Below, piece by piece: positions 30,380-58,996 of a stretch of DNA of 64,000 nt. Source of the DNA: Pseudobdellovibrionaceae bacterium. GTDB lineage: Bacteria > Bdellovibrionota > Bdellovibrionia > Bdellovibrionales > Bdellovibrionaceae. The notes beneath the pieces were generated by a model. That model was not told the origin of the DNA, did not search any database, and worked only from the letters and a program-made list of their open reading frames with translations. Position 1 is the first letter of the stretch, and each line of letters starts with the position of its first letter. A program made the position numbers and the translations under genes. The stretch spans positions 1 through 64,000 of the forward strand of contig JAHBUS010000002.1 of the NCBI GenBank assembly GCA_019637955.1, given 5' to 3'.

Positions 30380-30439
30380 GAAGTACCAATCCTTCTTATT
30401 TATTGATCGCCTTGCTTCAGGCACTCGGGTTTCCCTATA

Positions 30440-38998: not shown

Positions 38999-40483
38999 GT
39001 GATCGGCGGGACGGCCCGCTTTTTTGGTTCGGTGATCTGGACCGGGATTCGCTACGGCGTCCATTGGAAACCGAGAGTGTTTCTCTCTTGGGGCATTTAT
39101 CTCTTGTGGATCACCCTCATCATCTTCGGACCGAGGTGGAACTTGAGCGTTCTGCTTCAGTTCGCGGGCTCAATCGTAGGATGGGGTGGATTCGGCGCGT
39201 GGATGGGGGCGCACGTTCCGCGCCTGGTGCAACTCTTTGTCTTTTTTGTTCTGCCCCTGTGTGGCTGGCTGTTCGCGCACGGCATCCGAACGTGGATCGG
39301 CTTGAAAAAGTATCAACGGTCTATCGACCACTTGGGGCTGAAGACGCCCACGGGGGTCACGCCGAAAGTGGTTCGGGTCGTCGAGCTTGAGAACAAGCAA
39401 CGCCGGGTTCTTGTTCACGCCGTTGGACTCGATGTGGCTCAGTTTCGGGATAAGAAAGGCGTTTTGGAATCGAGCTTCAACGCCATCGTGCAGGAAGTTC
39501 GCGTCACGCCGAGCAATCGCCAGATGGTCGAGATCCTGGTTTCCGACCGGGAGCTGCCGACGCTCGTGCGCTTCGACTCTCACGCGGAAGCCTTGCGCAA
39601 GCCCTACACGTTCCTCGTGGGTGAAACGGTGGATGGTTTTATCACCGCCGATCTGTGCGAGATACACCACCTGCTGATCGCCGGCGCGACTGGCGGAGGG
39701 AAAAGCGTGTTCTTTAAGCAAGCGTTGGTTGGACTCTTGAAAAGCTCCGATCACGTCCAGCTCTATCTTTTGGACCTGAAGCGCGGAGTTGAGTTTCGGG
39801 TTTTCGGTACACTCAAGAATGTGCGGGTTTCCAAGGACGAGGCCACAGCTATTTCCATGCTCCAGCGGGTTGTTGAGGAAATGGAGCGCCGGTTCCGCTT
39901 TCTGGAGGAAAAGGGATTCACCGAGATCGTGCCGGAAAGGGATGGACTGGATCGAATCGTGGTCGCCGTGGACGAGGCTTCCGTGCTGTTCACCGTCGGC
40001 AAGATGTCAAAGGAAAGCAAAGCCGCCGCTGAAGGTGCCCGCGAGCTGACCGACAAGATCGCCAAGCTCGGCCGCGCCGCTGGCATTCACTTGATCCTGG
40101 CAACGCAAAAGGTTGTGAAGGAAACCATCGACACCCGTGTTCAGACGAATATCAACGCGAAAATGTGTTTTCGCGTAAACACCATCGCAAGCTCGATGAC
40201 CGTGCTGGGTAATAAGAAAGCCGCAGACCTCCCCGACATCAAAGGGCGAGGCATTTGGTCCGTCGGAAGCAACGATCTGGTCGTTCAGGTTCCATATCTG
40301 GATAGCGACGAGATCAACGAGGAAGTCTCGGGCCTGACCGCCAAGTTCAACGGCGAAGCATCGCCGCTGAAGCAAAAAATGCTTCAGACGATGGCACCGA
40401 AGAAGAAACGGTCCAAGAGCAACACCATGAGCCAGGAGGAAATTGAACAATTTGAGGCCGAGGAGAATCAGGATGTCGATTGA
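38999..40483 (+). CDS. FtsK/TcpA-like coupling ATPase (T4SS-1)
   Basis: 494 residues from GTG 38999 (AGGAAAA upstream; the frame stays open upstream without a standard start). Two to three N-terminal transmembrane helices (about 25-105), then an FtsK/SpoIIIE-type motor: Walker A LIAGATGGGKSVFFKQAL near 230, LDLKRGVEF, Walker B RIVVAVDEASVLF near 320, and AAGIHLILATQKVVKETIDTRVQTNINAKMCFRV. In conjugative elements of this kind such proteins (TcpA type) replace VirD4 as the substrate receptor. The second T4SS instead uses a TraD/VirD4-like protein, a real difference between the two systems. Confidence 0.88.
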   Translation: MIGGTARFFGSVIWTGIRYGVHWKPRVFLSWGIYLLWITLIIFGPRWNLSVLLQFAGSIVGWGGFGAWMGAHVPRLVQLFVFFVLPLCGWLFAHGIRTWIGLKKYQRSIDHLGLKTPTGVTPKVVRVVELENKQRRVLVHAVGLDVAQFRDKKGVLESSFNAIVQEVRVTPSNRQMVEILVSDRELPTLVRFDSHAEALRKPYTFLVGETVDGFITADLCEIHHLLIAGATGGGKSVFFKQALVGLLKSSDHVQLYLLDLKRGVEFRVFGTLKNVRVSKDEATAISMLQRVVEEMERRFRFLEEKGFTEIVPERDGLDRIVVAVDEASVLFTVGKMSKESKAAAEGARELTDKIAKLGRAAGIHLILATQKVVKETIDTRVQTNINAKMCFRVNTIASSMTVLGNKKAADLPDIKGRGIWSVGSNDLVVQVPYLDSDEINEEVSGLTAKFNGEASPLKQKMLQTMAPKKKRSKSNTMSQEEIEQFEAEENQDVD

Positions 40484-41213
40484 TATTCAGCCAAGGGATC
40501 GCCGGATCATGCGCCATGTGTTCGTTCATCGTGTTGCGACTTACGATCAAATCCGGAGGAAGTTTTTTGCGAAGAACTTTGAAACGGTGGCGAGGAATCG
40601 CATTCGTAAGCTGGTCAAACATGGATACTTTCGCTCGTTCGGCGCGGAACATGGTGCCGTCCTGATCCGCGCCTTGAGCCTTACGGAAAAATCGTGGCCG
40701 TTCATTTCAGAAGGCTGGGGCTTTGATATGGACAATCCGCACTTTCGCAGTGAATCCGTCGAGCATGATTTTCGCTTGGCCGAGGTGGTCTTGAAGTTTG
40801 AAAGGCTCCAGTCATTTGCGCGGTTCCTGTCGGAGAACCTTCTGCAATCATCAACGGCACTCGCGGCGGACCCGATTTTTCGGGATGCGGTCAACCTGCA
40901 ATCGGACGGTGTTCTCGTGCTCAAAGACAAGGACGGCGGTTCTATTCTGTACGCGGTGGAGTATGAGATCAGCAAGAAAGCACCGGATCGCTATACCCGA
41001 AAGCTCGAAGGCTACTATCAGGCCGGCGGCATTGATGGCGTTTTGTACGTCTGCGGGAATCAGGAGATCGCCGCCGCCGTTGCACAGGCGGATCGTAAGG
41101 TTCGCACAGGACACGAATCCATTGTGTTCCTCGCCGGAGAATCCAGTGTTCTCAAGTCGGAAGGCAAGGTCATCTTCAAGGGAGTCAGTGGTGGCGGCAT
41201 AGGGCTTATTTGA
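40473..41213 (+). CDS. Replication-relaxation-like protein, candidate relaxase factor (T4SS-1)
   Basis: 246 residues from ATG 40473, after GAGGAGAATCAGG; overlaps the coupling-protein stop by 11 bp. An N-terminal winged helix (RDRRIMRHVFVHRVATYDQIRRKFF ... RIRKLVKHGYFRSF) is followed by a PD-(D/E)xK-like part (LQSDGVLVLKDKDGGSILYAVEYEISKKAPDRYTRKLEGYYQ). This combination matches the Replic_Relax family reported to act in plasmid relaxation. No HUH relaxase is present in the cluster, so this is the best candidate for the DNA-processing protein. The homologue in T4SS-2 is at 49025. Confidence 0.72.
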   Translation: MSIDIQPRDRRIMRHVFVHRVATYDQIRRKFFAKNFETVARNRIRKLVKHGYFRSFGAEHGAVLIRALSLTEKSWPFISEGWGFDMDNPHFRSESVEHDFRLAEVVLKFERLQSFARFLSENLLQSSTALAADPIFRDAVNLQSDGVLVLKDKDGGSILYAVEYEISKKAPDRYTRKLEGYYQAGGIDGVLYVCGNQEIAAAVAQADRKVRTGHESIVFLAGESSVLKSEGKVIFKGVSGGGIGLI

Positions 41214-42861: not shown

Positions 42862-43983
42862 ATGGTTAGAATCTACAAGTACGAAAACGACGCTCCTCTT
42901 TATGAGGTGTACGTCAATATCAGGTCCAGATCCGGGAGAAGAACGCAGAAACGGATTCGGGGCTTCAAAACGAAGTCCGAAGCCGAGAAGCAGGAAACGA
43001 AACTTCTCCGAGAAGCGGAACGGGACCTGATCGAGAAGGAAGCTGCTGGTGAGACTTGGAAATACGTTGTGGATAAGTTTGAGGAAAACATATCTAAAAA
43101 CGAAAATCTGAAGGCTCACACCCGCCTCGACTATGTGGCAGCAGTTAGAAAGCACACCGAAGGTTTCATGAATAGGCCCATCAGCTCGATCACTCGGGTT
43201 GATGCCAAGGCTCTGTTCGCGGAACTATCGACGAAGGGTCTTTCAATCGGGCACCAAAAGAAGATCAAAATTATTCTGAATCGGCTTCATGCATTTGCCG
43301 CCGATGAAGGAATGATGTCGGAGGGGGTGAATCCCTTCCGGGCGGTCGAGTTCCCAAAGGAAGAGGAAAAAGTTCCTGAAATTCTCTCGATTGAGGAAAT
43401 CAGGCTTTTACTCAAAACCGCAAGGGACATAGACCATCCTTGGTATCCGGTTTGGGCGATGGCGCTTCTGACCGGCATGAGAAATGGTGAGCTTTATGCG
43501 CTGGCCTTTCAGGACGTGGATTTCGACAATAAGCTCATTACGCTTTCCCGCTCGTACAATACGCGAACGAGAAGTATAAAGAGCACGAAGTCTGGTTACT
43601 GGCGGCAAATCCCAATCTCGGCCGAGCTTGAAGTGCTTTTGAAGGAGCTGAAACTCAAGGCGGGAACTCGAAAAGAGGTCTTGCCGAGGCTTCCGGGTTG
43701 GGAGAAGGGCACGCAGGCGAAGGTTCTGCGGGCCTTCTGCCAGGTCGCGGGACTTCCGAGCATCAAGTTCCACACCTTGCGGGCGTGCTTTGCAACCCAG
43801 CTTATACGCACTGGCGTTCCGCCGATTCAGATTCAAAAAATCTGCGGCTGGAAAGACCTTGAAACCATGCAAATCTACATCAGACTTGCGGGGATCGAGG
43901 TGCAGGGCGTGACGGATGGGCTCAAGCTGTTGCCGGAAACCGAAGTTATGGGAAAGGTAGTCAGTCTATTTGGGGGGCAGTGA
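42862..43983 (+). CDS. int: Tyrosine recombinase (integrase) of ICE-1
   Basis: 373 residues. N-terminal arm-binding and SAM-like core-binding regions (about 1-165), then the catalytic domain: Arg in LLTGMRNGELYAL, Lys in KSTKSGYWRQIP, HTLRACFATQL (H-x-x-R), GWKDLETMQIYIRL with the nucleophile Tyr. The second histidine of the catalytic set is replaced by Trp (CGWKD), a common tolerated variant. It lies beside the right attachment repeat, as integrases usually do. It should integrate and, with the excisionase-like protein, excise the element. Confidence 0.95.
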   Translation: MVRIYKYENDAPLYEVYVNIRSRSGRRTQKRIRGFKTKSEAEKQETKLLREAERDLIEKEAAGETWKYVVDKFEENISKNENLKAHTRLDYVAAVRKHTEGFMNRPISSITRVDAKALFAELSTKGLSIGHQKKIKIILNRLHAFAADEGMMSEGVNPFRAVEFPKEEEKVPEILSIEEIRLLLKTARDIDHPWYPVWAMALLTGMRNGELYALAFQDVDFDNKLITLSRSYNTRTRSIKSTKSGYWRQIPISAELEVLLKELKLKAGTRKEVLPRLPGWEKGTQAKVLRAFCQVAGLPSIKFHTLRACFATQLIRTGVPPIQIQKICGWKDLETMQIYIRLAGIEVQGVTDGLKLLPETEVMGKVVSLFGGQ

Positions 43984-43993
43984 TGCCCCGTGA

Positions 43994-44016
43994 TGGCTAC
44001 ACTCTGGCTACAAATT
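43994..44016 (+). repeat. Candidate right attachment site of ICE-1
   Basis: Two TGGCTACA words at 43994 and 44005, 11 bp apart, followed by AATT. It equals 125-147 at 22 of 23 positions. It overlaps the final codons and stop of the minus-strand serine recombinase gene (EFVARV-stop), so ICE-1 appears to have inserted at the 3' end of a gene belonging to the neighbouring element. Confidence 0.72.
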
Positions 44017-45661
44017 CACCTAAACTTGTGAAATGGTTGGAGTCTCGAAGAATCCGCCAATTTCGATTTCCCTTCATTTCGGCCAATTTCTCGAATGGCT
44101 TTTCCAAACGATAATGCAGAGTTAAGTCATCCAAAGTCGGGTTCGAACATACGTTTTTCAGGTAATCCACGCGTTCTTGGCGATCCATCGTTTTCCAGAG
44201 TTCTTTCGCGCCGATAGCCAGTTCTAACACTTTTTGGACCGCGACCTCTCCCGAGTCGGTGATCAAGAGGTTGAGATGTTCGAGCTGGTCGGTGCAGTCA
44301 TCTTCGCGCTTTTCCAGAAGCGCGATTTGATCTTCGTAATCGACCTGCGCGAGCTTGCCCATAGTGAAGAGATTTACGACATTGCGGCGCTGTTCGCGGA
44401 CTTCCTGCATGACGATCCTGAAGCCCTCCATTTGCTTTTTGATCGCCGTCCGTTGCTTCTCAAAGGAGTTTTTGATTTCGTTCGAGAGGTCGGCGGCAAA
44501 CTCTTTGGTGATGTCAATGCGGTCCACGCTGGGCTCGAACTGAGCGAATATTTTTTCTTCGGAAGAGTAAACAAGCTTCCCGTGGACCTTCCGCGAATTG
44601 GAACAACGGTAGAGGTGATAGACTTTAGCTTCGCCCGTACTTTTCAAGATTTTCTCCTTTTTCTCGTAGGTGATGAGGCGCTGACATTCGGGGTGAGCGC
44701 AGGTGAGCCAGCCTCGGAAAATGTCATCGCCCGCCGCCACGGAGGAAACACGATACTTGCAGGCGTTACCGTTGTTGACGGCTTCGACGGCCTTTAGGAC
44801 TTGTGCAGGAATGATCTTCTCATGCTTGCCCGGATACCGGATCGGGTCATCCTTCAGGTGGAAGAAACCCCAATAAAATTCATTCTTGAGACGGGCTTCT
44901 ATGGCGTGACGACTGTACGTTTCGCGCATTTCCGCGGGCACGAAAAATTCTTCTTTTCCGCCTTGGCGTACCTTTGCCGCGAGATTGATCCTCCGAATTT
45001 CATCGTATGAAGTTCCCTGAGCGCGGAGCTCAAATTCCCTTTGAACAATGCGCACGTTTCTCGTATCGGGGTCCACGATGACTTTCGCCGTGCCTTTGAT
45101 GCCGTTACCGTACTTGTCGCGGTCCTTGTAATGAATGTAGCCAAGTGCCGTCCAACGGTAAGGCCACCATCCCTCAAGGGCTTTCGTGCGGAGCGAAGCC
45201 TTTAGGGTTGTGCTCTTTCCGCGTGATTCGCCTTTGTTCATAACGGCGTTCATTTCCCGAAACGCAAAATCCGCGTCGGGGGTCTTCTTCCAGTAAACGC
45301 GCCCTTCGGTGACATGGTGAATGATGATCTTGCCAGCGCGAATCAGTTCCTCGTGCTTTTCCACGTCAGTCAGATTACGGGCCTCCCGAGAGCTCCAGAA
45401 AAAAACGATGTGCCGGATCTTCTCTTTGAGGGCGTGCTGGATCAGCGCGTGGAACTTTTTCCGTTCCTTGCGCTTAAATGCCGTTTCGATAATGGACTCG
45501 ATTTGTACGACTTCGAGCCCTTGTTTTTGAGCGTATTCGACGTTTTCGCGGCGCTGGGTTTCGCCGGATGTGTTTTCTTTTTGCCCGTAACCGCTTCGGC
45601 GAATGACCAGCAGGGTTCGCTTGTTCGGGTCAGATTTCCAGCTCTCAGAAATGTCTTCCAT
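43997..45661 (-). CDS. Large serine recombinase with zinc-ribbon (ICE-2)
   Basis: 554 residues; ATG follows GGAAAGG. Resolvase domain (catalytic Ser in VIRRSGYGQ near residue 23; FFWSSREARN), recombinase domain (WWPYRWTALGYIHYKDRDKYGNGIKG ... RLKNEFYWGFFHL), then a zinc-ribbon part (CAHPEC ... YRCSNSR) and a long coiled coil (ADLSNEIKNSFEKQRTAIKKQMEG) as in phiC31-type integrases. Its last six codons lie in the right attachment repeat. It is the probable integrase of the second element, transcribed toward ICE-1. Confidence 0.92.
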   Translation of the reverse strand: MEDISESWKSDPNKRTLLVIRRSGYGQKENTSGETQRRENVEYAQKQGLEVVQIESIIETAFKRKERKKFHALIQHALKEKIRHIVFFWSSREARNLTDVEKHEELIRAGKIIIHHVTEGRVYWKKTPDADFAFREMNAVMNKGESRGKSTTLKASLRTKALEGWWPYRWTALGYIHYKDRDKYGNGIKGTAKVIVDPDTRNVRIVQREFELRAQGTSYDEIRRINLAAKVRQGGKEEFFVPAEMRETYSRHAIEARLKNEFYWGFFHLKDDPIRYPGKHEKIIPAQVLKAVEAVNNGNACKYRVSSVAAGDDIFRGWLTCAHPECQRLITYEKKEKILKSTGEAKVYHLYRCSNSRKVHGKLVYSSEEKIFAQFEPSVDRIDITKEFAADLSNEIKNSFEKQRTAIKKQMEGFRIVMQEVREQRRNVVNLFTMGKLAQVDYEDQIALLEKREDDCTDQLEHLNLLITDSGEVAVQKVLELAIGAKELWKTMDRQERVDYLKNVCSNPTLDDLTLHYRLEKPFEKLAEMKGNRNWRILRDSNHFTSLGEFVARV

Positions 45662-47599: not shown

Positions 47600-48145
47600 T
47601 TAGTGATTTGAGTAAACGTAAATTTGGCCGTGGTTGTAGATGAACGAATAATCTCCGTTCAGTTCGAGGTCGCGGGCATAACCTTCATAGTCGAAGTAGT
47701 TGCGCGCCCATTCGGGAACTTCCGCAAGCTGGCCGGTCGATTCCAGAAGATAGTCGGCGAAGGCTTCGCGGGAGTCGTGGGCACCTTGCCATTGCTCCAG
47801 AAACTTCTCTTCCAATTCGTCAACGTCGGAGTGTTGGCCGTCCTGGTTGGTGTACCAAAGCTCGAAGCCGTCCCCATGTTCCTCGATGAGTTCCGCAATC
47901 TTTGAAACCCGCGCCATGTCCGGCCACTCGCCCAATTCGATTTGGCCGAAACCATCGTAATCGTGAACGGCCCACTCCTCTGCGAAGGGTTCCGGCGATG
48001 CCTTCAGTATTTCGCTGATCTCGCTTTGGATAGACTCGGCATCTTGGGTTGCGGAAATCCAACGTCCGTGCAGTTTGCCGTTGTTGTAGGCTGCGAGGCA
48101 GGCAACGTAGATTTGCGGTTCAGTTTTGGAAGATTGGTTTTGCAT
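47600..48145 (-). CDS. ardA: ArdA antirestriction protein
   Basis: 181 residues, highly acidic. Hallmarks: QIYVACLAAYNNGKLHGRWISA at the start, EEWAVHDYDGFGQIELGEWPDM, a central helix pair, EKFLEQWQGAHDSREAFADYLLE and the end WARNYFDYEGYARDLELNGDYSFI. ArdA mimics B-form DNA and blocks type I restriction enzymes when a conjugated strand enters a new host. In conjugative plasmids it sits in the leading region near oriT; here a hairpin-rich gap with a nested repeat lies directly upstream. Confidence 0.95.
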   Translation of the reverse strand: MQNQSSKTEPQIYVACLAAYNNGKLHGRWISATQDAESIQSEISEILKASPEPFAEEWAVHDYDGFGQIELGEWPDMARVSKIAELIEEHGDGFELWYTNQDGQHSDVDELEEKFLEQWQGAHDSREAFADYLLESTGQLAEVPEWARNYFDYEGYARDLELNGDYSFIYNHGQIYVYSNH

Positions 48146-48429
48146 AGTGACTTCTCCTTTTGTTCTCGGGAACTGGATTGCTCCCTTAAAAAATTTTTTC
48201 CCTGCGGCCCGGTTCGTACCCAGCTCGCTGGGCGGAGGGAAAAAAAGGAGATGGCTGGCGGGGTTTGCTTGAAGTGGACCTAGCCCCTTGGGGCGTTTCC
48301 GTGGGACGTGCCACCAAGCGAAGCGACTGGCGCGGCGCTCGGATGGGCCAATTCAAATTTGCAAAGCGTGACAGTCTCGACCAATAAAAGGAAAGGCGTG
48401 GTTGCCGAAGGCGACCGCGCAATCGTCTT

Positions 48430-48588
48430 TCGCGGGCAGTCCGCTTGGACGGACATTGATGCCCGCGAGTTCTTCCCGTGGCGGGATCTCCAAGGGCAAA
48501 GGCCCTTGGGCCTCGGAGGGATTCTAAAGGGAGGCCGGAGGTGCGGTCGCCCTTTCGTCAGGAGATCAAAGAGGGAGACACCCTCTTT
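48430..48588. repeat. Cluster of hairpins upstream of ardA
   Basis: Three separate stems: TCGCGGGCA/TGCCCGCGA (48430-48468) enclosing GTCCG/CGGAC; CAAGGGC/GCCCTTG (48491-48508); AAAGAGGG/CCCTCTTT (48568-48588). All arms are perfect. They lie in the 879-bp gene-free gap 48146-49024. Such fields resemble single-strand promoters (Frpo/ssi) that drive leading-region genes in the incoming strand; this is inference. Confidence 0.6.
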
Positions 48589-48758
48589 GCAGAATCAAAG
48601 ACGGCCCCCAAAAAAAACCGATGATAGCACCGACCTTCGCCGCCGCTGCCTTGCCACCTTCATGACTTTCCTGTTACCGCCCTCACCACTGAACCTTTTT
48701 TGGGGGACCGGATTTGATTCTCTGGAGAGAGAGAAAACATCATCATTCATTCACCATC

Positions 48759-48882
48759 TGCCCCTGCCCCTTGCCCATGTATTGGAGACAGTTCCTGACC
48801 ACTTCCCACCGTAATGTATTCATGTAGGGGGGGAGTGGTCAGGAACGATCAGGCGCAAAGGAATGGGCAAGGGGCAGGGGCA
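48759..48882. other. Nested inverted repeat, candidate oriT of ICE-2
   Basis: The outer arms TGCCCCTGCCCCTTGCCCAT (48759-48778) and their exact reverse complement (48863-48882) are perfect over 20 bp. The inner arms GTTCCTGACCACT (48791-48803) and AGTGGTCAGGAAC (48834-48846) are perfect over 13 bp. The whole forms a 124-bp two-tier cruciform. It lies between ardA and the 3' end of the Replic_Relax-like gene. An origin of transfer or a single-strand replication origin fits; no nick motif can be named. Confidence 0.6.
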
Positions 48883-48940
48883 CTTCTTCATGAATTTCGT
48901 AGCTTTGCCTGGAATTTTCTTTCTCGTCGCCGCGTCTTCA

Positions 48941-48964
48941 AAGTGTTCCACCTGGTGAACACTT
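48941..48964. repeat. Palindromic operator-like site
   Basis: AAGTGTTC (48941-48948) and GAACACTT (48957-48964) with an 8-bp spacer CACCTGGT that is itself nearly palindromic. It lies 61 bp from the Replic_Relax-like gene's stop. A binding site for a dimeric DNA-binding protein, e.g. an RHH-like relaxosome factor. Confidence 0.5.
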
Positions 48965-49024
48965 ACCGAAACCGCATCGCCAGTCGCCGCCGCCAGCTTT
49001 GTGACGACAGCGCCCCGCGAAGCT

Positions 49025-49870
49025 CTAACTGCCTGACTCGATCCTTCGGGCCATTTCCGCGAAGGAAATTTCCCTTTTTCCATTCGTCATGGGAGCTTCA
49101 AGGCCTTTCAAAAGGAAATCTTCGAGCGAGCAAAAGTAAATTCCGTTCACAACTTTTGCCAACCGCACTTCGAGGTCTTTCCGTTTCACCTCTTCCAGAG
49201 TTTCCATCAGGCTTTTCCTCAATGCCTCGTCTTTGACGAGGTAAAGGGTCAGATTCCATTTCTTGGCGAGAAGATGAGCGCGGAAAATTCTTCCGTAGCG
49301 ACGTTTGGATTTCTGCGTCAGCTCCAATTCGAGCGCGATCTTCATGGACTGCTTTGGCGTTCGCTGAACGAAAACGGCGTCGGGGATGAGTTGCGCGGTT
49401 TGCCAGTTGGAGGGCCGATTTTTTCCATCGGCGATTTCGGCGCGGAGTTCGTGGTCCATCTTGAAGCCGCCGATCAGCGGGCTTTTCTCCAAGATCCGGC
49501 GCACGTCGATGAGCTTTTGGTCGTGCTCGAATTGCGTCTTGTACCCGCGCCGCGAGAGCGACACGTCTTGGTTCGGCGACTGCTCTTTAAGGAGACGTTT
49601 TCCTTTCAGGCTCAGGCGGTAGCCGAGAAGCCTGTCTCCGTCGCCCGTGACCTTTTCCACAAAACCGCTTTCGGTCAAAATCCGAAGCCTGCGATTGTGC
49701 GCCCGCGATCCCTCTGTTGAATCCCAAAAATAGAATTTCACCCGCGAGGGACTGACGCATCCGTGTTCGCCCAAGAAACCCAACAGCCGAAGATCCCGCT
49801 CCGTCAGCCGAGCACGGCGGGGCTTTTTCGCCCCGCACCCGTCCGCCGTCTTATCTCCAGCGTAAGTCAC
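49025..49870 (-). CDS. Replication-relaxation-like protein (ICE-2)
   Basis: 281 residues from GTG 49870, overlapping the lipoprotein stop (GTGA) and 8 bp after GGGAG. Winged helix (LTERDLRLLGFLGEHGCVSPSRVKFYF ... RRLRILTESGFVEKV) followed by a PD-(D/E)xK-like half (LIPDAVFVQRTPKQSMKIALELELTQKSKRRYGRIF). Same architecture as the ICE-1 protein at 40473, and again immediately before a nested inverted repeat. Best candidate for the DNA-processing factor of this element. Confidence 0.72.
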   Translation of the reverse strand: MTYAGDKTADGCGAKKPRRARLTERDLRLLGFLGEHGCVSPSRVKFYFWDSTEGSRAHNRRLRILTESGFVEKVTGDGDRLLGYRLSLKGKRLLKEQSPNQDVSLSRRGYKTQFEHDQKLIDVRRILEKSPLIGGFKMDHELRAEIADGKNRPSNWQTAQLIPDAVFVQRTPKQSMKIALELELTQKSKRRYGRIFRAHLLAKKWNLTLYLVKDEALRKSLMETLEEVKRKDLEVRLAKVVNGIYFCSLEDFLLKGLEAPMTNGKREISFAEMARRIESGS

Positions 49871-50313
49871 TTTCCTTTCTCCCACCGGGCGGGTTCGGCG
49901 ATTTCGTACTCAAAGTGCGCCGGAACGAAAACTCCGTCCTTCACTTGGTCTTCGACATATCGGACGCGCACTTGGGCAGGCCGGAGCTTTGGCCCCTTGT
50001 CCTTGTCATTGCCGCTTCCGAACATCTCCAGATTCGGCGCTCCGTAGGTAACGCCGGACTGGAGCTTCTTTTTCTCCTGGTCCTTAAAGCTTTGATCTCC
50101 GATCAGAGCGCCGAGAGCTCCGCCCGCCGCCGCCCCGACGAGAAGACCCGTTGTCCTTTGCTCCGAGCTTCCGTCTTTGCTTGCGAGGCTTCCAATACTT
50201 CCACCCACAACCGATCCGATGACGCCGCCAAGAAGTCTTGATTTCTCGACTGTGGCGCATCCGGTGAACAGAAGCGAAAGAGTTAGGCCGAGAGGAATGA
50301 TTTTTCTGAGCAT
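49867..50313 (-). CDS. Glycine-zipper lipoprotein (ICE-2)
   Basis: 148 residues. Signal MLRKIIPLGLTLSLLFTGC with lipobox FTGC, then two glycine-zipper stretches (LLGGVIGSVVGGSIGSLA; LLVGAAAGGALGALIGD) and a soluble C-terminus (RVRYVEDQVKDGVFVPAHFEYEIAEPARW). Similar in plan to the ICE-1 lipoprotein. Possible VirB7-like, surface-exclusion or peptidoglycan-interacting role. Confidence 0.8.
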   Translation of the reverse strand: MLRKIIPLGLTLSLLFTGCATVEKSRLLGGVIGSVVGGSIGSLASKDGSSEQRTTGLLVGAAAGGALGALIGDQSFKDQEKKKLQSGVTYGAPNLEMFGSGNDKDKGPKLRPAQVRVRYVEDQVKDGVFVPAHFEYEIAEPARWEKGK

Positions 50314-50387: not shown

Positions 50388-50942
50388 TTACGCATCTGTG
50401 ATGTCCGTTTCCTTTTGCCCCGTTTTCTTCGAGACTTCGGGCATCGCCTTGATGGGCTTTGCGGCCTTTTCCACTATCGGGAGAGCAACCACCGGAAGGC
50501 TCTCCCGCATAGCGAACTTCAGCTTGATGTTCTGAACCCCATCCCGGTGCGGGATACTTACGACGCCAAATCCGGTACCGAGTTTCTTAAAAATGTTCGG
50601 GTGGAAATTGAACTCTTCCACGTCCCGCACAGTGCCGTCGCCCGTCGCGTCTCCGTCCTTGGTCTTTTGTGTGAGCTTCGTTGTGGTCTTCGTCCCAAAG
50701 GTTTTGGCGAAGTGATCGCAGGTTTCGGGATCGTTCATTCGCATGACAACCTTGATATTCGTGTTGGTGAGAACCACGTTTCGGAAGGCTTCGGACACTT
50801 TGTCAAGATCACCGAGAGCCTGGTGCGAGAACACGACGCCCACATTCGCCGAGCGCGATTTATTCAAGAGCGAACCAAATCCCTCGTAAATATAGTCCTG
50901 GAAGTCATCGAGGATGCAGGAGAAGAACTTAGGCTGCCCCAT
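50388..50942 (-). pseudogene. C-terminal part of frameshifted TraD/VirD4-like coupling protein
   Basis: 184 residues from the ATG at 50942 if translated alone. It begins MGQPKFFSCILDDFQDYIYEGFGSLLNKSR, i.e. the Walker B strand and following region of a TraD/VirD4 ATPase, then VGVVFSHQALGDL and NTNIKVVMRMNDPETCDHFAKTFG, all typical of VirD4/TraD. It overlaps the upstream piece (50929-51990) in another frame. Skipping one G of the GGGG at 50937-50940 joins both into one protein of about 535 residues. Confidence 0.8.
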
Positions 50943-51990
50943 CTTTGACACCTCCAAGGCTGATCTGGCGCTTGGAGACGGCATTTTGAAAGCATTGAAG
51001 GACGAGCTTTCCGGTGGCACTCGCCAAGAAAGGAAAGTACATCGTCGGAAGCTGGAAATAGAGAATGTGATTGCCTTGCAGAGCTTCGTCGAATTGGATC
51101 GCGTGGTCTGTCTCTTGGAATAAAACGCTCACGTCGCCCACGGTGAAATGACTGAGCATCGTTTCTAAGCCACTCGTTTTTTCCTCGCGGTCTTTCTCGG
51201 AAAGTTTTAAGAACCGCAAAACGTCACGGCTCAACATCTCGTCGGGGCAAGCGACCGCCCACTTTTCAAGTTCTTCGGCGTCCACCAGGAGGCGATGGAT
51301 GAGGGAAAAGGTCGGCGTTTCTTTTTGCGCGAAGACGAGGCGCACGAGATTCAAAAAAATCCGATACTGGATATTTTTGTAATACTCGTTTTCAAACGCG
51401 AAGCTCGAAAAGACTCTCTCCGTGACCTCCTGCGCGGAGTCGCCCTTCAAGGGATTGAACGACGACGACGGACCTGGATTTGCCAGAGCGAAGAGGCGAA
51501 AATCCGTTTCGCGTCCATAGTGTTTGACGTAAGAATAGAGCTTATTGACGAAGCTCGCATCCGACTTGCCATCGAGGATCAAAACGCCCGATCCGTTTTT
51601 GATGTCCTGGATCGCCCAAGGCAGGATCACGCTTTCCGATTTCCCGGCGTTTGTTGTTCCGATCACCTGGGCGTGCATGGTGCGGAAAGACTCTTTCAGA
51701 TGAATCTCCCGCCCGCCATCGACGGCTTTTCCGAGAAACACGGAAGAGCTGTCCTCTTCCGTAATGCTCTCTTCTTGCTTGAGAAGCGCGTACTTATTCC
51801 AGAGCTTCAAGATCCCCAGCACAACCAAAGCGCCGGCGGTCGTCCAAAGCCCCATGAGCACAGGCCCACGCAAATGTTTCCAGAGGTATTCGATCTGAGG
51901 ACTTATGCGCCAGAGAAACGCCACCAGAAGGATGAAGCCAAACAGGTAAAGCTCGGAAAACTCCGAGCTCGGTTTCTTCTTATCCTTCAT
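50929..51990 (-). pseudogene. virD4: N-terminal part of frameshifted TraD/VirD4-like coupling protein
   Basis: 353 residues. Two transmembrane helices (about 10-30 and 43-62), then EESITEEDSSSVFLGK and Walker A VIGTTNAGKSESVILPWAI near 112, ILDGKSDASFVNKLYSYV, and a helical all-alpha domain. It ends ISLGGVKDGAA-stop just where Walker B should come. The missing ATPase half lies in the other frame (50388-50942). Either a recent one-base insertion in a G-run, a sequencing error, or programmed +1 slippage. Its start overlaps the virB10 stop by 4 bp. Confidence 0.85.
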
Positions 51991-52913
51991 TGGTGGAACT
52001 CCTGTTCTAAGAACAGGACGAACCGCTTTCCCGCAGGAACTCGGATCGAGGCCCCTCCGCTTCCTATATTTTCGGCTTCGGCTTTGGCGTAGGACTCCGC
52101 GGACTGCGTGACACCATTCAAGAGGCCGTTCTTGACGCTTCCTTCTTCCATCGGGAGGCCAAGGCCACCACTTGCTTTGCGGTCTTTAAGGCCCTGGGCG
52201 AGTCCACCGACGAAGGTTCCGACGAGTTGGCTTGCGTGCCGGCGAAAGGTCCCAGAGGAGAAATCCCCTGTAAGGCCGCTGGAACCGTCCATCATTGCCG
52301 CCAGCCCCGAGATCGAGAACTGTTCACCCTCGGGGAAAACCAGCGTGTGGAAACGAACCTGAAGGCGCTCCCTCGTGGCATCGAGCTGGCCATTTCCGAT
52401 CACTCGCGTTCCTTTTGGGATCACGAGGGCCTGAAGGGGGCTAAGAACATCATCAAGGACGACGGCCTGGACAGGGCTGTTATTATCCGTACTCTCGACT
52501 TTGCCCAAGAGCTGCACCTGGAATACGGAACCCACAGGGAGAGCGTCGGCTGAGTTTTCCCCACGTTTGATAATCTGGGATGCGTTTCGCTGGCGCGAGG
52601 AAAACGAGCCACCGCCACCGCGACGATCCGGCATCGAGGAAAGAGTCAGGTAGCGGTCTGACTCTGCCTTCGGCCCAGAGTGCGGCATGGACTCGGCGGC
52701 GGCCGTCTGATCCTTCAAGTCCTTCTTCGCTTCCGTCTCTAGCCGCTCACGTTTGGATTGCCCGTCAAAGACGGCACCCAGCACGAACACCAAAACGACG
52801 AGAACGCCAAAAACGATCCCGACTGTTTTAAGGTTGATCGTGCGTTTTTTGCTATAAACATGCTCCTCGTTCAGAAAAAAGTCGGCGACGTTCTTACGTC
52901 CGACTCTGCTCAC
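51987..52913 (-). CDS. virB10: VirB10/TrbI-like core protein (T4SS-2)
   Basis: 308 residues from GTG 52913, 7 bp after GGAGG. Transmembrane helix near residues 30-52 (TVGIVFGVLVVLVFVLGAVF), a linker, then the beta domain: NSADALPVGSVFQVQLLGKVESTDNNSPVQAVVLDDV ... IPKGTRVIGNGQLDATRERLQVRFHTLVFPEGEQFSISGLA, and the closing IRVPAGKRFVLFLEQEF. The IPKGTRVIG and V-P-x-G-x-x-F-x-L-F end are VirB10/TrbI signatures. Confidence 0.9.
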   Translation of the reverse strand: MSRVGRKNVADFFLNEEHVYSKKRTINLKTVGIVFGVLVVLVFVLGAVFDGQSKRERLETEAKKDLKDQTAAAESMPHSGPKAESDRYLTLSSMPDRRGGGGSFSSRQRNASQIIKRGENSADALPVGSVFQVQLLGKVESTDNNSPVQAVVLDDVLSPLQALVIPKGTRVIGNGQLDATRERLQVRFHTLVFPEGEQFSISGLAAMMDGSSGLTGDFSSGTFRRHASQLVGTFVGGLAQGLKDRKASGGLGLPMEEGSVKNGLLNGVTQSAESYAKAEAENIGSGGASIRVPAGKRFVLFLEQEFHQ

Positions 52914-52932
52914 TAGGAGTCCTCCTTTCGGC

Positions 52933-53679
52933 TCAAGGCCTGCGCCCAAAGTCAGCGGAGAACGGCATTGAAAGCGGTTTGCCTGTCTTGGTTTTTAGCT
53001 CCAAGCGGAGCGGGGTTTTGGGGTCCATCTGATCCATGCGGAGAAGCAGAAGGACGCTTGAAAATTTCCGGGTCTTGTCTTTGCCTGATTCAACGAAGAG
53101 GTTATCGAGGGGAATGGCCCTTTTGCCTTGGAAGACGGAAAGGCTTTCTCTTCCAACCGCGACGTCTTCCTTGGTGCTGGATACCTCGAATTTCAAAACA
53201 AGCGTTGAGCGGCTGATTGGTGTCGAAACCGTGATAAGTGTTAGCTTCAAGTTTCCGATCGCCACCGTGCGCCCAATCTTTCTTGTGAGAAGATCGTCCA
53301 CCAACACGGGCTTTGCCATTTTCGCGGTAGGGGGCGGCGACGTGCGAATCTGGGCGTAAACGATATTGTCGTGCCTTCCGACTCCCGCAAGAAGTTGGAA
53401 GTTGAACTGGCCTTCCTTAGTGAACAAAAAGAGATTCGTCTTTCCGCGAGAAACCATCGGCTTGATCGCCACCATGTTTTTCAGGTACTCGACTTTGAAT
53501 CCGTCTTGATCGCCGATGAGCCCAGGTTGAGGGTGCGAGTCGAACTTGATAAGGGTTGAAAACCCAGGCTCGACGAACACCGTTTCCATATCACTGTCAG
53601 AGAGGCGCACGACCCGCATGGATTTGGCCCATGCCTCAACGGGAGGAAAGGCCATAAGGATCAAAAGAAGAATCCGCAT
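52933..53679 (-). CDS. virB9: VirB9-like outer-membrane complex protein (T4SS-2)
   Basis: 248 residues from ATG 53679 after AAAAGGAGG. Signal peptide MRILLLILMAFPPVEAWA. Beta-rich mature part (METVFVEPGFSTLIKFDSHPQPGLIGDQDGFKVEYLKNMVAIKPMVSRGKTNLFLFTKEG) similar in plan to VirB9/TraK N-domains and to the ICE-1 protein at 37271. It follows virB8 and precedes virB10 by 19 bp. Confidence 0.8.
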   Translation of the reverse strand: MRILLLILMAFPPVEAWAKSMRVVRLSDSDMETVFVEPGFSTLIKFDSHPQPGLIGDQDGFKVEYLKNMVAIKPMVSRGKTNLFLFTKEGQFNFQLLAGVGRHDNIVYAQIRTSPPPTAKMAKPVLVDDLLTRKIGRTVAIGNLKLTLITVSTPISRSTLVLKFEVSSTKEDVAVGRESLSVFQGKRAIPLDNLFVESGKDKTRKFSSVLLLLRMDQMDPKTPLRLELKTKTGKPLSMPFSADFGRRP

Positions 53680-53701
53680 AGGGGGCCTCCTTTTCTGGTT
53701 T

Positions 53702-54292
53702 TTAGGGCGACATGAGTTTTTCACTCGTGATGTAGATGCCTTCAGGGTTGTTGGCGGTGCGGTCGCCTAGGGTGAATCCAATCTCAAGATCGAGTCCTTG
53801 CGCCGCCCGCACCCCACTGACGATGAGGATACGGTCGGCTCGGACCTGGGCCGTTTTTGCCTTCATGTTGAGCTTTGGCTCATCGGGAAAGAACTTCTGT
53901 GCGATTTGCTTTTCCTTGGAAATGCGAATCTGCTCGGCGGTCGCCACGAGGTACTTTTCCCGGTAGTCGCTTGCGACGTAAAAGCTCGCGGCTTTGGTTT
54001 TCGCTTCAACCGTGTTCCAGTCCCAATTGTGCCGGGTCTTCAAGTAATTGATGATCGCCCGAATGATCTCTCGCGTGAGTTGTTCGGCGTCAGGTTCCCC
54101 GACATCGAGCTTCTGCGTGACCTCTTTGGAAATTGCGATAAGAACGGGGCCGCGCAAAGCGAGGACCGAAATCACCACGAGTTGAACGGAGAGAACGGCG
54201 GCGAGGACGAGAACCATGTATTTCAGGATGCGGTTTTGCGCTTCTTCGTCGGCCCACACCTCGAACCAACGGCGCTGAATCTTGCGAATCAT
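53702..54292 (-). CDS. virB8: VirB8-like protein (T4SS-2)
   Basis: 196 residues from ATG 54292 (AAAGGC upstream). One transmembrane helix near 25-48 (YMVLVLAAVLSVQLVVISVLAL), then a periplasmic domain (EQLTREIIRAIINYLKTRHNWDWNTVEAKTKAASFYVASDYREKYLVATAEQ). The layout is that of VirB8/TraE. Position between virB6 and virB9 supports the call. Confidence 0.8.
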   Translation of the reverse strand: MIRKIQRRWFEVWADEEAQNRILKYMVLVLAAVLSVQLVVISVLALRGPVLIAISKEVTQKLDVGEPDAEQLTREIIRAIINYLKTRHNWDWNTVEAKTKAASFYVASDYREKYLVATAEQIRISKEKQIAQKFFPDEPKLNMKAKTAQVRADRILIVSGVRAAQGLDLEIGFTLGDRTANNPEGIYITSEKLMSP

Positions 54293-54311
54293 ATTTTGCC
54301 TTTCGTTTTTT

Positions 54312-55304
54312 TTACGCCCTAGGAGGCGGTAATTGCGGAGGCGGCGGAGGAAGGTAGATCGTAGAGGCTTGGATTTGCCGAGGCCCGACATCTCTCATTG
54401 GTGGCGGAGGCGGTGGATTTCCACCCATCGAAAATCCTCCACCATGAGCGCCCATCTTGTTGTTCATCATCTTGCCGAAGTTCATGAGGTTCCCCATCTC
54501 GCCGCCGAGTAATTTCTTTGCCGCTAAGACTTTTGCGGGAGCCGCGACCATCAAAGCCGCTGTTGCACCGGAAAGACCGCCTGCCATCGACGTGAAACTG
54601 CCGCTAAAGAGCGAGTGAACAACAAGCGGAGTGCCGACCATGCAGATCGCGATGACGAAATTCATCACCGTTATGGTGAGGTAATTTCCGTCCATCGCGT
54701 ACCACGTCCCGAACGGCAGAGCCTTTATCATGACCGACAAAACGCTCCAGACCACTTTCCACGAAGCAATCTCGAACATCGAACGAAAGAGGTTCACGGT
54801 GACTTGCGACGAGAACAGATGAAACAAGAGCAGAATCGGAGCCATGATAGACAAAAAGATCCAAGAGAAATGATAAACGGCGACCATGATATATCTGGCG
54901 CAATAGAGGATCGCAAAAGAGCAGTAGGACAAAACCGCCATCATCAAGTCGTCAAAGGCCAACACCAAAGACATCGAACTGCGTGGATAACTTTGGGCTT
55001 TCTCTCCTGCCATTTGCAGGAAAGAATCAAGCCCGCTCATGTTGTCGATCCTCTCGGCAATCCCGCTCGTGATGAACAGCATGGCGTCCGTGATCTCGGC
55101 GAATCCCGCGAGAAGCAGGGTCGCTACGAATGCCCTTTTCACCTTGTCGATAAACTCAGGACTCCCTGCCGGATTCTGAAGCCAAACAATCACCACCGAC
55201 GCCATGAAGAAGACCGGAAGCAGCATGTAGTAGATGTCTCGCATCTCGTTGTGGACCTTGAAGGCCACCGAGCCGAGCGCCGCGAACTGATTTAACTGAT
55301 CCAC
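54312..55304 (-). CDS. virB6: VirB6-like polytopic protein with proline-rich tail (T4SS-2)
   Basis: 330 residues; GTG start 9 bp after GGAGG. Five or six hydrophobic segments (about 25-45, 58-78, 115-140, 148-170, 195-240), with the Trp-centred FEIASWKVVWSVLSVMIKALPF helix matching VQVVIWKILWSILGV of the ICE-1 VirB6. The C-terminus is strikingly proline-rich (NPPPPPPMRDVG; YLPPPPPQLPPPRA), absent from the ICE-1 homologue, and may bind a partner. Confidence 0.85.
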   Translation of the reverse strand: MDQLNQFAALGSVAFKVHNEMRDIYYMLLPVFFMASVVIVWLQNPAGSPEFIDKVKRAFVATLLLAGFAEITDAMLFITSGIAERIDNMSGLDSFLQMAGEKAQSYPRSSMSLVLAFDDLMMAVLSYCSFAILYCARYIMVAVYHFSWIFLSIMAPILLLFHLFSSQVTVNLFRSMFEIASWKVVWSVLSVMIKALPFGTWYAMDGNYLTITVMNFVIAICMVGTPLVVHSLFSGSFTSMAGGLSGATAALMVAAPAKVLAAKKLLGGEMGNLMNFGKMMNNKMGAHGGGFSMGGNPPPPPPMRDVGPRQIQASTIYLPPPPPQLPPPRA

Positions 55305-55358
55305 TCAGCAAACCCTCCTTTAAGAAAGAAGTGATCGCCTGGATGGGCTTGGATTTTC

Positions 55359-56060
55359 CTAGTGGGAACCGGAGAGCGACGGCAGATCAAAGCCGCCCTT
55401 GGCGGCTTGAAGGACCTGGCCCAGCTCGTTGTACTGATCGCGGAACTGCTCGGATTGGAGTTTGGACTTTCGGTTTTGCATGGCGAGCTGTTCGCTCTGT
55501 ACTTTGAGGAGGGCCGCGTTTGTGCGAAGAATCTGATTCAAGACGTGAATCGTGACCCCTTGCGCTTGCAGGCTTGCTTTCGCGGCCCCTTGCGGGCTCG
55601 CCACGTTCGCATATTGCTTCATGCGCTCGGCCTCGGGATCAACACCGTCGGCGTACCGGAAGGCGTCGTTGTGAAGCTGGATGCTCTCGGCCACCGTCAT
55701 ATCGTGCGTGCTCTGCGTTTGCGCTTCGGCTGTCATGGGGATTCTCCCATAGAGCCGTTCCATCTGGCGTAGGATGTCGTTCACGTCGTTCAAGTTCCAA
55801 TTTCCGCTTTTCATGGTGCGGTTCAGGGTTTCTTGCAACCGCATGGCATCCCGCAAGCCGTTGTTGATGTCCCTCATAAAGTTCAGCGAGTCGCGGCCAT
55901 TGCCAAGAATCGACTGAAGCTGCGTTACTTGTTGGATGGCCTGCGCGAGAATCTGCATAAGGATGGGAATATCGGCCCCCCAGAAATCCGCCTTGGCCGA
56001 AGGCGAAATCGTGAGGGCCAAGGCCGTCACTAAGGACAAGAATCCCTTTCTGATCTTCAC
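55359..56060 (-). CDS. virB5: VirB5/TrbJ-like protein (T4SS-2)
   Basis: 233 residues. Signal peptide MKIRKGFLSLVTALALTISPSAKA; then a helical secreted protein (PILMQILAQAIQQVTQLQSILGNG ... TIHVLNQILRTNAALLKVQSEQLAMQNRK). The last segment corresponds to LQSEQIAMANK in the ICE-1 homologue. ATG overlaps the virB4 stop (ATGA). Confidence 0.85.
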   Translation of the reverse strand: MKIRKGFLSLVTALALTISPSAKADFWGADIPILMQILAQAIQQVTQLQSILGNGRDSLNFMRDINNGLRDAMRLQETLNRTMKSGNWNLNDVNDILRQMERLYGRIPMTAEAQTQSTHDMTVAESIQLHNDAFRYADGVDPEAERMKQYANVASPQGAAKASLQAQGVTIHVLNQILRTNAALLKVQSEQLAMQNRKSKLQSEQFRDQYNELGQVLQAAKGGFDLPSLSGSH

Positions 56061-58630
56061 GCGCTCTCCTTCGTTTGAAGGTTGCTCATGGCGACGCCTC
56101 GCGGGTACTTCGTGGCGAGATCGAATATCACTTCCGAAATGCTCTTTGACGGGTTCTCCTCTCTGTACTTTTCGTAAACGCTGTTATCATCCCGGTCACT
56201 CGTCGCCAGCCAATACTCAAGCGGAGTCGGAAAAGCGCGGATTACAGCGCGGTCTTCATTGGCGATCATGTAGGCTTCCGAGAAAACGCCCTTTTGCTGG
56301 CGAAGAGTCGAAATGAGCGCCATTTCCTGATCGTTGAGTTTCAGGACCCGGCGCACGGGTTCAAGATCGCCTCGTTGAAGCAGAATGACCTTGGTGGGCG
56401 TGTTGCCTAAGATCGCGGGACCAATCGGATGCGCGACAATCTCGTCCAGCCCTTGGGTGACGAAAGTGATGCCCCCGAGTGCTTTTCGCAGGGTTCGCAC
56501 CCAGTACTCCATCGCGTGCGAGGCAGGTCCTTTCAACAGCTCCCAGCATTCGTCCATGTAAATGCGCTTCTTACGCCCGAAGTATTGCGGAAGCCGCGAT
56601 TCCACCTTACCCACGATAAAATCCGTGATGATGAGGGTCATCACAGCCTGAAGATCGGGGTAAGAGGAAAGGCCCTTCAAGTCGAAGACGACGAAGTCCG
56701 AGCTCAGATCCAGTTCGTTCGGGCGATCCAAGAGTCGCCCGTAAGAACGCTCGCCCGTCCACGGATAGAGCATCTTGGCGAAGTCTTGCAGTTCCTTCTC
56801 TTTCGATTTTTCCAGCGTTTTGCGAAGGTCGGAGAGAACGGGCACTCGCGCATCTATTGCCCGCACCGCCTTGTAGGTCTCGATAACCGCTTCTTCGAGG
56901 AGGCTGCGCGAGAGTTTTGGGAGCTTGTCACCTTCCTCGTCCGTGAACATACATTCGAGAAGCGAGACGAGAAATTTCACCTTCTGCGAAGAAGGCTCGA
57001 CCTCATCACTAGGAAGCTCGAACGGATTGATGACCTTCCGGGTTTCTCCTTCGGTGGCGGGGCCGATCTCGATGTACTGGCCGGACATGAACTCGCAAAT
57101 TTTCTTGTACGATCCACCGATGTCGATAACGAAGACGATGGGCTTTTGGGTCATCGCCTGAGTCATAATGATGTTGTTCAAGAAACTTTTTCCGGCTCCC
57201 GAAGAACCCGTGAAAAGCGCATTGAACGATGGCAGTCGGGCCGTATCGAAAGGGTCATAGGCCACAAGGCCCGCCGTGCGGTTGTGAAACAAACAAACGG
57301 GGCTGACACCTTGACCGGAGTAGGGCTCAAAGATCGGTAAGAAATCGGCGAGGTTGTCGGTCTTAACCCGCTTCGCCCGAACGCTCGCCACGTTCCCGAG
57401 TGGCAGCATGGTCTTGAACACCTTGAATCCTGCGACTGTCTCGGCCAGTCCTTCCGCGCCCGATAGCTCGCGGAATTTCTGCAAAGCCGTTTTCGTCATT
57501 GTGGTCAGTTCGTCTTCGGTCTTGGCTCGAAGAAGGAGTGACGTCTGGAAGTAAAAAATCTTTTGCCCCGTGTTGATGAGCTCGCGTAAAAGTTCTTCCG
57601 TGGAATTGAGCTGCGCTTCGGATTCGAGATCAGTCGCACGGCCTCCGTGGGACGCTGACATGGAGTGCGCCATGCGCCGCTTTTGCTGAAGGCTCGAAAG
57701 CTCCTTCGATTGCTCTGGCACCTTCACATGGACATCGAGCCAGTAGTGAAACGGAAGCTGCGTGAAAACGGCCATCATCGCCGCGTGGGTTTCTTCAGGC
57801 AGCGTTTTCAGGGTCAAAATCCGGTGGTAGTAGCCGTCGAAGAAGAAACTCTCTGCGCCCTGAATCAGATCCGAGAAAACGAGCTGTTCTCTCGGGCTTT
57901 GCAACGCAAGCTCGGGGACGATCTTCAACTCCTCGCCTTGAAATTCCTGATCGCGGTGCGCGGTCTGGAATTTCGGCGCGGAAACGTCTTTCGAGCGGGA
58001 GGGATTCAGGAACTTGTAGATCAGCTCCCAGGTTTCACTCTCTGAAAGAGGTTCGGCACCGATCCCCATACTCGTAAGCACTGCTTGGCAGCTATCAGCA
58101 CTTTGCCGGAGCTCCCGTTCGGCCTTTTCATGCTCTTCCTGACGCACGGCCTGGAATTTCTTAGGCGAGCTAAAAAACGACGAGAAGATTGAGGCGTTTT
58201 TCTTCCCCTCAAAGCGTTGGCAAAGGAAGAGATACAGCGAGGAACGCGAGAGTGCCCCGCTTTCCATCTGGGCCTTCAGAGCGTCGGCGCGGGCCTCGGC
58301 AATCCATCGGATGCCGGGGATGTCGCCGGAAAGAGCCTTGTGTTTCTCGATGATCTCCGAAAAATCGGAGTTCACCTGAGTCACGAAACTCAGCTCCAGG
58401 CCGTCCGGCAGACCGTTCAGGAAAGAGCGGAGGTCTTGGGCGAGACGGTTGATGCGGTTTGCATCCCACGTTTCTACCGAAGCACCTTTCAGGCGAAAGC
58501 CAAGGCCCAGGCTTCCGTCGCTGAGGGCGACTATGCCGTTTAAGAAGTCCCAATACGGAAGTTCTTTTGCGAGAGAGTGTTCAGCCTGAAATTCGTTGAA
58601 GTCGGAAAATAGCCGATTACGTTTCGTCAT
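56057..58630 (-). CDS. virB4: VirB4-like T4SS ATPase (T4SS-2)
   Basis: 857 residues from ATG 58630 after GAGGAGG. N-terminal domain (YWDFLNGIVALSDGSLGLGFRLKG), then the motor: Walker A LFTGSSGAGKSFLNNIIM near 475, Walker B RIYMDECWELLKG near 685, and GGITFVTQGLDEIVAHPIGPAILGN. Intact and full length. It overlaps virB3 by 14 bp and virB5 by 4 bp. Confidence 0.95.
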   Translation of the reverse strand: MTKRNRLFSDFNEFQAEHSLAKELPYWDFLNGIVALSDGSLGLGFRLKGASVETWDANRINRLAQDLRSFLNGLPDGLELSFVTQVNSDFSEIIEKHKALSGDIPGIRWIAEARADALKAQMESGALSRSSLYLFLCQRFEGKKNASIFSSFFSSPKKFQAVRQEEHEKAERELRQSADSCQAVLTSMGIGAEPLSESETWELIYKFLNPSRSKDVSAPKFQTAHRDQEFQGEELKIVPELALQSPREQLVFSDLIQGAESFFFDGYYHRILTLKTLPEETHAAMMAVFTQLPFHYWLDVHVKVPEQSKELSSLQQKRRMAHSMSASHGGRATDLESEAQLNSTEELLRELINTGQKIFYFQTSLLLRAKTEDELTTMTKTALQKFRELSGAEGLAETVAGFKVFKTMLPLGNVASVRAKRVKTDNLADFLPIFEPYSGQGVSPVCLFHNRTAGLVAYDPFDTARLPSFNALFTGSSGAGKSFLNNIIMTQAMTQKPIVFVIDIGGSYKKICEFMSGQYIEIGPATEGETRKVINPFELPSDEVEPSSQKVKFLVSLLECMFTDEEGDKLPKLSRSLLEEAVIETYKAVRAIDARVPVLSDLRKTLEKSKEKELQDFAKMLYPWTGERSYGRLLDRPNELDLSSDFVVFDLKGLSSYPDLQAVMTLIITDFIVGKVESRLPQYFGRKKRIYMDECWELLKGPASHAMEYWVRTLRKALGGITFVTQGLDEIVAHPIGPAILGNTPTKVILLQRGDLEPVRRVLKLNDQEMALISTLRQQKGVFSEAYMIANEDRAVIRAFPTPLEYWLATSDRDDNSVYEKYREENPSKSISEVIFDLATKYPRGVAMSNLQTKESA

Positions 58631-58940
58631 CGGGTGCCTCCTCTTGGAAGTAAGACCGGTAATCAAGGTCAGGCATCGAAGGAGAGAGGACGCTTGGGCT
58701 CACCATGTACTCGCCATAGTGCTGAAGGTAGCCATCGGGCTTTCCGCGCTTGACGAAGTAGAGAACGCCCGCGAGCGCGGTTGTTCCTCCCCATACGAGC
58801 AGGAATTTCAGCCGGGTGTGCCCGAAGACGAGGTTCGAGACAGCGAGATACAAAAAGACGAGCAGCAAGTCCGCGAGTTCAAAGCCAAAGAGCCGCGCCT
58901 TCTTTTCAAGAGCACGCGGTACCTTCGAGTGAAAGAGCAT
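58617..58940 (-). CDS. virB3: VirB3-like protein (T4SS-2)
   Basis: 107 residues from ATG 58940 (AAAGGAG upstream). Cytosolic start HSKVPRALEKKARLFGFELADLL, a hydrophobic hairpin (LLLVFLYLAVSNLVFG ... FLLVWGGTTALAGVLYF) and VKRGKPDGYLQHYGEYM, the same GKPxGYL motif as the ICE-1 VirB3. Placed between virB2 and virB4. Confidence 0.87.
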   Translation of the reverse strand: MLFHSKVPRALEKKARLFGFELADLLLVFLYLAVSNLVFGHTRLKFLLVWGGTTALAGVLYFVKRGKPDGYLQHYGEYMVSPSVLSPSMPDLDYRSYFQEEAPDDET

Positions 58941-58996
58941 GAGGACTCCTTTCTTCAAGAAACGAAGGCCGGAAAATGCTCCGGCCTCGTTGGTCG

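Follow-up and report, generated by a model that had tools for sequence, protein, structure and literature searches.

The DNA analysed here, a 64,000-nucleotide stretch from a Pseudobdellovibrionaceae bacterium (the window), contains an integrated element whose conjugation genes lie together on the minus strand. An antirestriction gene, ardA (47600-48145; Pfam PF07275, E 7e-43), is separated by a gap of 879 bp from a gene for a MOB_C-type relaxase of 286 amino acids (49025-49885; MobC family/Replic_Relax, PD-(D/E)xK motif). Beyond it lie a type IV coupling protein gene (50388-51990) and type IV secretion system (T4SS) genes (51987-58958), which encode VirB10/TrbI, CagX/VirB9-like, TraE/VirB8-like, VirB4/TraC, and TraL-like proteins, together with proteins of 330 and 233 amino acids identified as VirB6 and VirB5 by synteny and length only, without Pfam support. 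The coupling protein gene is split by a frameshift into two overlapping ORFs. The frame breaks near GATGGGGCAG, and the protein is intact (534 amino acids) in the relative L121; with its frameshifted coupling protein gene, this copy of the element may be defective. The distal end of the ardA-side module is occupied by a large serine recombinase (43997-45661, minus strand).

The serine recombinase stands tail to tail with a tyrosine integrase on the plus strand, 13 bp apart (42862-45661), and each of the two recombinases closes a T4SS module of its own, the modules spanning 32.6-41.2 kb and 49-59 kb. In the upstream element, a second MobC-like protein (40443-41213), in which SD replaces PD, adjoins an FtsK-like ATPase. 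Two YcaO-domain genes (29351-30424 and 63010-63930), each near histidine kinase genes, are found one by each module.

The gap between ardA and the relaxase gene is crossed by a few ORFs in the mechanical ORF list only, and it is rich in inverted repeats. The largest structure is a nested inverted repeat of 124 bp (48759-48882, no strand assigned). Read on the plus strand, its outer arms (48759-48778 and 48863-48882) are complementary at all 20 positions. The inner arms are paired at 18 of 20 positions, the outermost 13 bp without mismatch; the left one (48791-48810) contains a conserved GTTCCTGACCACT core and the right one (48827-48846, GGGGGGGAGTGGTCAGGAAC) the predicted nic. The gap also holds an imperfect 26-bp repeat (85%) enclosing 79 nt (48591-48721, arms 48591-48616/48696-48721), with G5 and A-T tracts and a possible small ORF inside; a short perfect hairpin read from the sequence, AAAGAGGG..CCCTCTTT (48568-48588; no strand is assigned to either); and a stem that is 88% paired (48194-48209/48230-48245). 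The hairpin field described in the initial annotation, with a 20-bp outer and a 13-bp inner repeat plus further stems, is thus present in full. As single-stranded DNA, a 132-nt block folds with z = -10.5 on the plus strand and -9.5 on the minus strand, none of 200 shuffles being equally stable, and the whole 879 nt reach a z of about -8. In its own genome the nested repeat matches only itself, and this single copy argues against a transposon or MITE. As far as sequence can tell, the nested repeat is far beyond chance, because its inner core and nested layout recur in related elements.

The neighboring 286-residue protein matches the NCBIfam model NF041423 ("MobC family replication-relaxation protein") with E 1.4e-10 and 40.9 bits, where the curated subfamily cut-off is 200, and Pfam PF13814 Replic_Relax with E 4.7e-4, below the gathering score. 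A tblastn search against plasmids returned 152 records, with 86% of the protein covered and E about 0.05; among the matches listed, most are annotated as mobC. The plasmids with MobC that we compared are typed MOBC. When an HMM was made from the Bdellovibrionota copies, it recovered enterobacterial MobC with E 3.6e-16. In an alignment of 18 proteins that includes two enterobacterial MobC, H121, D169, E186, E188, K192, and R196 are invariant and P168 nearly so. By these matches the protein is a member of the MobC/Replic_Relax family, and it carries what align as the PD...(D/E)xE...K catalytic residues of MOB_C relaxases. To our knowledge, MOB_C is among the least studied relaxase classes, PD-(D/E)XK-like and with no covalent intermediate seen. 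The PD-(D/E)XK pattern is reported for MOB_C relaxases (PMC12857230). A single-sequence AlphaFold2 prediction of the relaxase, made without an alignment, gave an unusable model (pLDDT 35). No other relaxase was recognized among the annotated genes of a compact related element (G046:C7).

The inner repeat TCCTGACCAC...GTGGTCAGGA is present in 26 of 368 Bdellovibrionota genomes (20 of the 140 in the order) when searched as TCCTGACCACN{20,48}GTGGTCAGGA; the reversed pattern, our control, gave none. At 27 of 40 places a MobC-like relaxase gene lies within 250 bp, always in the same orientation, and the site is mostly 3' of the gene; at the other 13 no relaxase was detected nearby, some of these being at contig ends. 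Two related elements have an identical inner repeat in the same place and a different outer repeat. Outer arms are significant (p<0.01) at 30 of the 36 sites with enough flank, and 30 distinct sequences are seen among these arms, so that the outer stem varies between elements while its pairing is preserved. When the cores adjacent to a relaxase gene (22 distinct ones) are read in relaxase sense, pair 12 is C.A in 21 of them and C.T in the remaining one; across positions 11-16, A.C occurs 30 times and G.T never. Hence the hairpin wobbles solely on the relaxase-antisense strand.

The site also occurs outside complete conjugation modules. Three integrase islands carry it (G046 contigs 10 and 16, G093 contig 33), with no detectable relaxase and no T4SS genes among their listed ORFs. 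No nested repeat was found beside the relaxase-like gene of the upstream element in the window (element A, 40443-41213), and a search of viral contigs for the palindrome gave two matches, both with unusual loops and neither with a detected relaxase. We also observed an extra AAAGCCTTT...AAAGGCTTT hairpin in the palindrome flanks at L150 and L172. On contig 8 of the window's own genome, two MobC-like genes and a coupling protein are immediately preceded by a further nested triple repeat (L205:7951-8110), whose core has diverged.

One could argue that the palindrome is an operator or another cis-regulatory site of the relaxase operon, at which binding of the relaxase or of a dimeric repressor controls transcription. 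Inverted repeats are typical of operators, and at most loci the site is no more than 250 bp from the relaxase gene. We nevertheless consider this extremely unlikely, for the following reasons. First, at most loci the site is 3' of the gene, and it is also found in integrase islands without a detected relaxase gene. Second, an operator needs neither an outer stem of free sequence that is kept by compensatory change nor wobble on one strand. Third, the same layout is seen at the mob locus of CloDF13.

CloDF13 (oriT-mobB-mobC) is the prototype of MOB_C, and there, as in the element studied here, a MobC-family relaxase adjoins the coupling protein. Upstream of its mob genes, two nested repeats surround GGGTGGTCGGG: a perfect outer one of 14 bp (9650-9663/9770-9783) and an inner one of 19 bp (9680-9698/9746-9764). 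In the diverged plasmid pYR8 the layout is kept while the arms have changed. The two systems share nested outer and inner repeats and a core of the form TGACCAC...GTGGTC. They differ in that CloDF13 is a plasmid and our element is integrated, in the core itself (GGGTGGTCGGG versus GTGGTCAGGA), and in the position of the site, which is 5' of mobB-mobC in CloDF13 and mostly 3' of the relaxase gene here. A CloDF13-type MOB_C oriT has a GTG/GTC core enclosed by nested inverted repeats, and the candidate site has this layout as judged from its letters.

Other MOB_C systems offer looser comparisons. In the enterobacterial pMET1 and HPI-ECOR31, nic lies within an inverted repeat and two nic sites are possible (PMC2262945); the likeness to our site lies in this described layout. 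TraX of pAD1, which acts at oriT2, belongs to the class of wHTH plus PD-(D/E)XK relaxases, into which the relaxase here would also fall. The binding sites of TraX are direct repeats located 70-120 bp away from nic, and a nested repeat is not described in the accessible part of that paper (PMC12857230).

We therefore conclude, with high confidence, that an integrative and conjugative element of the MOB_C type has its oriT at 48759-48882. The reading combines conservation, covariation, orientation, gene linkage, and the homologous layout of CloDF13. The proposal of an oriT in the initial annotation is strongly supported, since conservation of the site next to a MOB_C-type relaxase gene is joined by its presence in islands without a relaxase and by a CloDF13-like architecture. 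Relaxase binding, nicking, strand choice, and mobilization at the candidate site are what we infer from sequence. The MobC/Replic_Relax protein would bind the adjacent nested repeat, one strand of which would fold into, or be recognized as, a hairpin whose core (TTCCTGACCAC...GTGGTCAGGAA) is constant and whose outer stem varies freely in sequence but stays complementary. Nicking by the relaxase would then take place in the core's right arm, with GGGAGTG/GTCAGGA on the plus strand (48837/48838) as the most likely point, and the nicked strand would pass to the neighboring coupling protein and T4SS. The small integrase islands that carry the site alone are probably mobilized in trans.

Could the palindrome instead be a rolling-circle double-strand origin, at which the relaxase acts as the Rep protein of the excised element? 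The Pfam family is named Replication-relaxation, the relaxase has a weak PHROG match to "replication initiation by nicking", and some relaxases of integrative and conjugative elements drive replication too. We regard this explanation as very unlikely when T4CP and T4SS genes adjoin the site and the closest characterized relatives of the protein are conjugative MobC proteins. A dual role as replication origin and oriT may still apply and is compatible with the oriT reading.

Which strand would an oriT at this site transfer? The nick of CloDF13, as reportedly mapped by Nunez and de la Cruz in 2001, is GGGTG/GTCGGG, and CloDF13 wobbles, read from its arms, on the strand carrying GGGTGGTCGGG. In our sites, the G-rich context GGGNGTG/GTCAGGA (consensus) is on the wobble strand, which is the plus strand of the window. 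From the CloDF13 motif and the wobble strand, nic is most likely between 48837 and 48838 (GAGTG/GTCAGG) on the plus strand. The transferred strand would then presumably run into the relaxase and T4SS genes, and ardA would be the last to enter. An order in which relaxase and T4SS enter first would be unusual; it follows from the nick motif because in the window's own subtype oriT is 3' of the relaxase gene. Taken alone, spacer asymmetry would favor the minus strand, which may be the one transferred. Deducing the direction from the composition of the arms was dropped, as the outer arms are symmetric and only mismatches and spacers carry direction.

If the minus strand were transferred, ardA would lead but would point away from oriT, and the incoming strand could not serve as its template. 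In plasmid F, in contrast, the leading genes point towards oriT. For MOBC leading regions, no enrichment of anti-defense genes is reported (PMC11541004). The further suggestion that the gap is a leading region with single-strand hairpin promoters is hence unsupported: by the nick motif ardA would enter last, and otherwise it would lead without a template.

The hairpins next to ardA appear to have a different function. A structured leader domain (48247-48382, minus strand), a candidate RNA motif distinct from the candidate oriT hairpin, is followed by a hairpin and T-tract resembling an intrinsic terminator (48188-48245, minus strand), located 42 nt upstream of the start codon of ardA. The folded domain is common to five ardA loci from other genomes, and a search of Bdellovibrionota with a covariance model gave 15 strong copies and a marginal one (L196, E 0.096). 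These precede ardA (8 copies), ardC, DUF3560, DnaJ-domain, brnT, and other genes. In the alignment fitted to the covariance model, 23 of 34 pairs show compensatory changes, with 61 such cells against 16 in shuffles; in a MAFFT alignment of six leader sequences covariation also exceeds all shuffles. A T5-T7 tract follows the leader in 13 of the 15 copies; the hairpin of L197 is degenerate, and L195 and L199 are without a clear tract. Folded by itself as RNA, the leader in the window has an unexceptional energy (z -1.6), so it is covariation and the terminator that carry the argument. Which strand folds cannot be read from the counts of G.U (20) and A.C (16) cells alone.

A structured leader followed by a GC hairpin and a T-tract before the start codon is, on its sequence features, the layout of an attenuator, and the leader probably attenuates ardA transcription, a reading we hold with moderate confidence. 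A single-strand promoter or priming site of the Frpo/ssi type, used when single-stranded DNA enters, is rather unlikely. Like Frpo/ssi elements (PMC11541004), the leader is a conserved folded element directly before antirestriction genes, and its single-stranded DNA folds strongly. It differs from them in having no -35/-10 hexamers identified so far, in ending in a terminator hairpin and T-tract on the ardA-sense strand in most copies, and in its orientation, given that ardA would enter last or without a template. The leader also precedes BrnT and DnaJ-domain genes. A single-strand promoter at ardA, as initially suggested, is accordingly not borne out: the hairpins form a sense-strand leader with a terminator, and no Frpo is recognizable.

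It is unlikely, too, that the leader is a trans-acting small RNA that ends at the terminator and adjoins ardA by accident. A compact structured domain and then a terminator would fit such an RNA, but the approximately 25-50 nt between terminator and start codon would hardly accommodate a further promoter, and the spacing is found again in front of different genes. STAXI is likewise a structured motif near antirestriction genes; it consists of tandem pseudoknots (PMC2864571), whereas an Rfam covariance search gave no gathering-level match for the leader, its permissive hits being chance miRNA-like hairpins. Neither viral contigs, searched with the exact terminator pattern, nor plasmids and phages, searched with blastn, yielded a match. 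A first sequence probe, GTCACNNNTTGCANNTT, gave mostly chance genomic matches and was useful only where ardA followed. At L023:25-250, a long inverted repeat consists of two near-identical leaders of divergent, head-to-head paralogous small genes, upstream of the ardA leader. Another folded-leader copy lies at 11593 of L205 on contig 8, after the nested triple repeat.

We tentatively suggest, at somewhat less than even confidence, that the leader represents a new class of regulatory RNA in Bdellovibrionota mobile elements, which would control antirestriction and toxin genes by termination, perhaps on entry into a new host. This unmatched leader offers a testable route to the early control of antirestriction genes. 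The approximately 35 distinct candidate oriTs with covarying stems, from many elements of predatory bacteria, would allow a direct test of MOB_C recognition. They may also be a route to understanding how non-autonomous islands get carried along.
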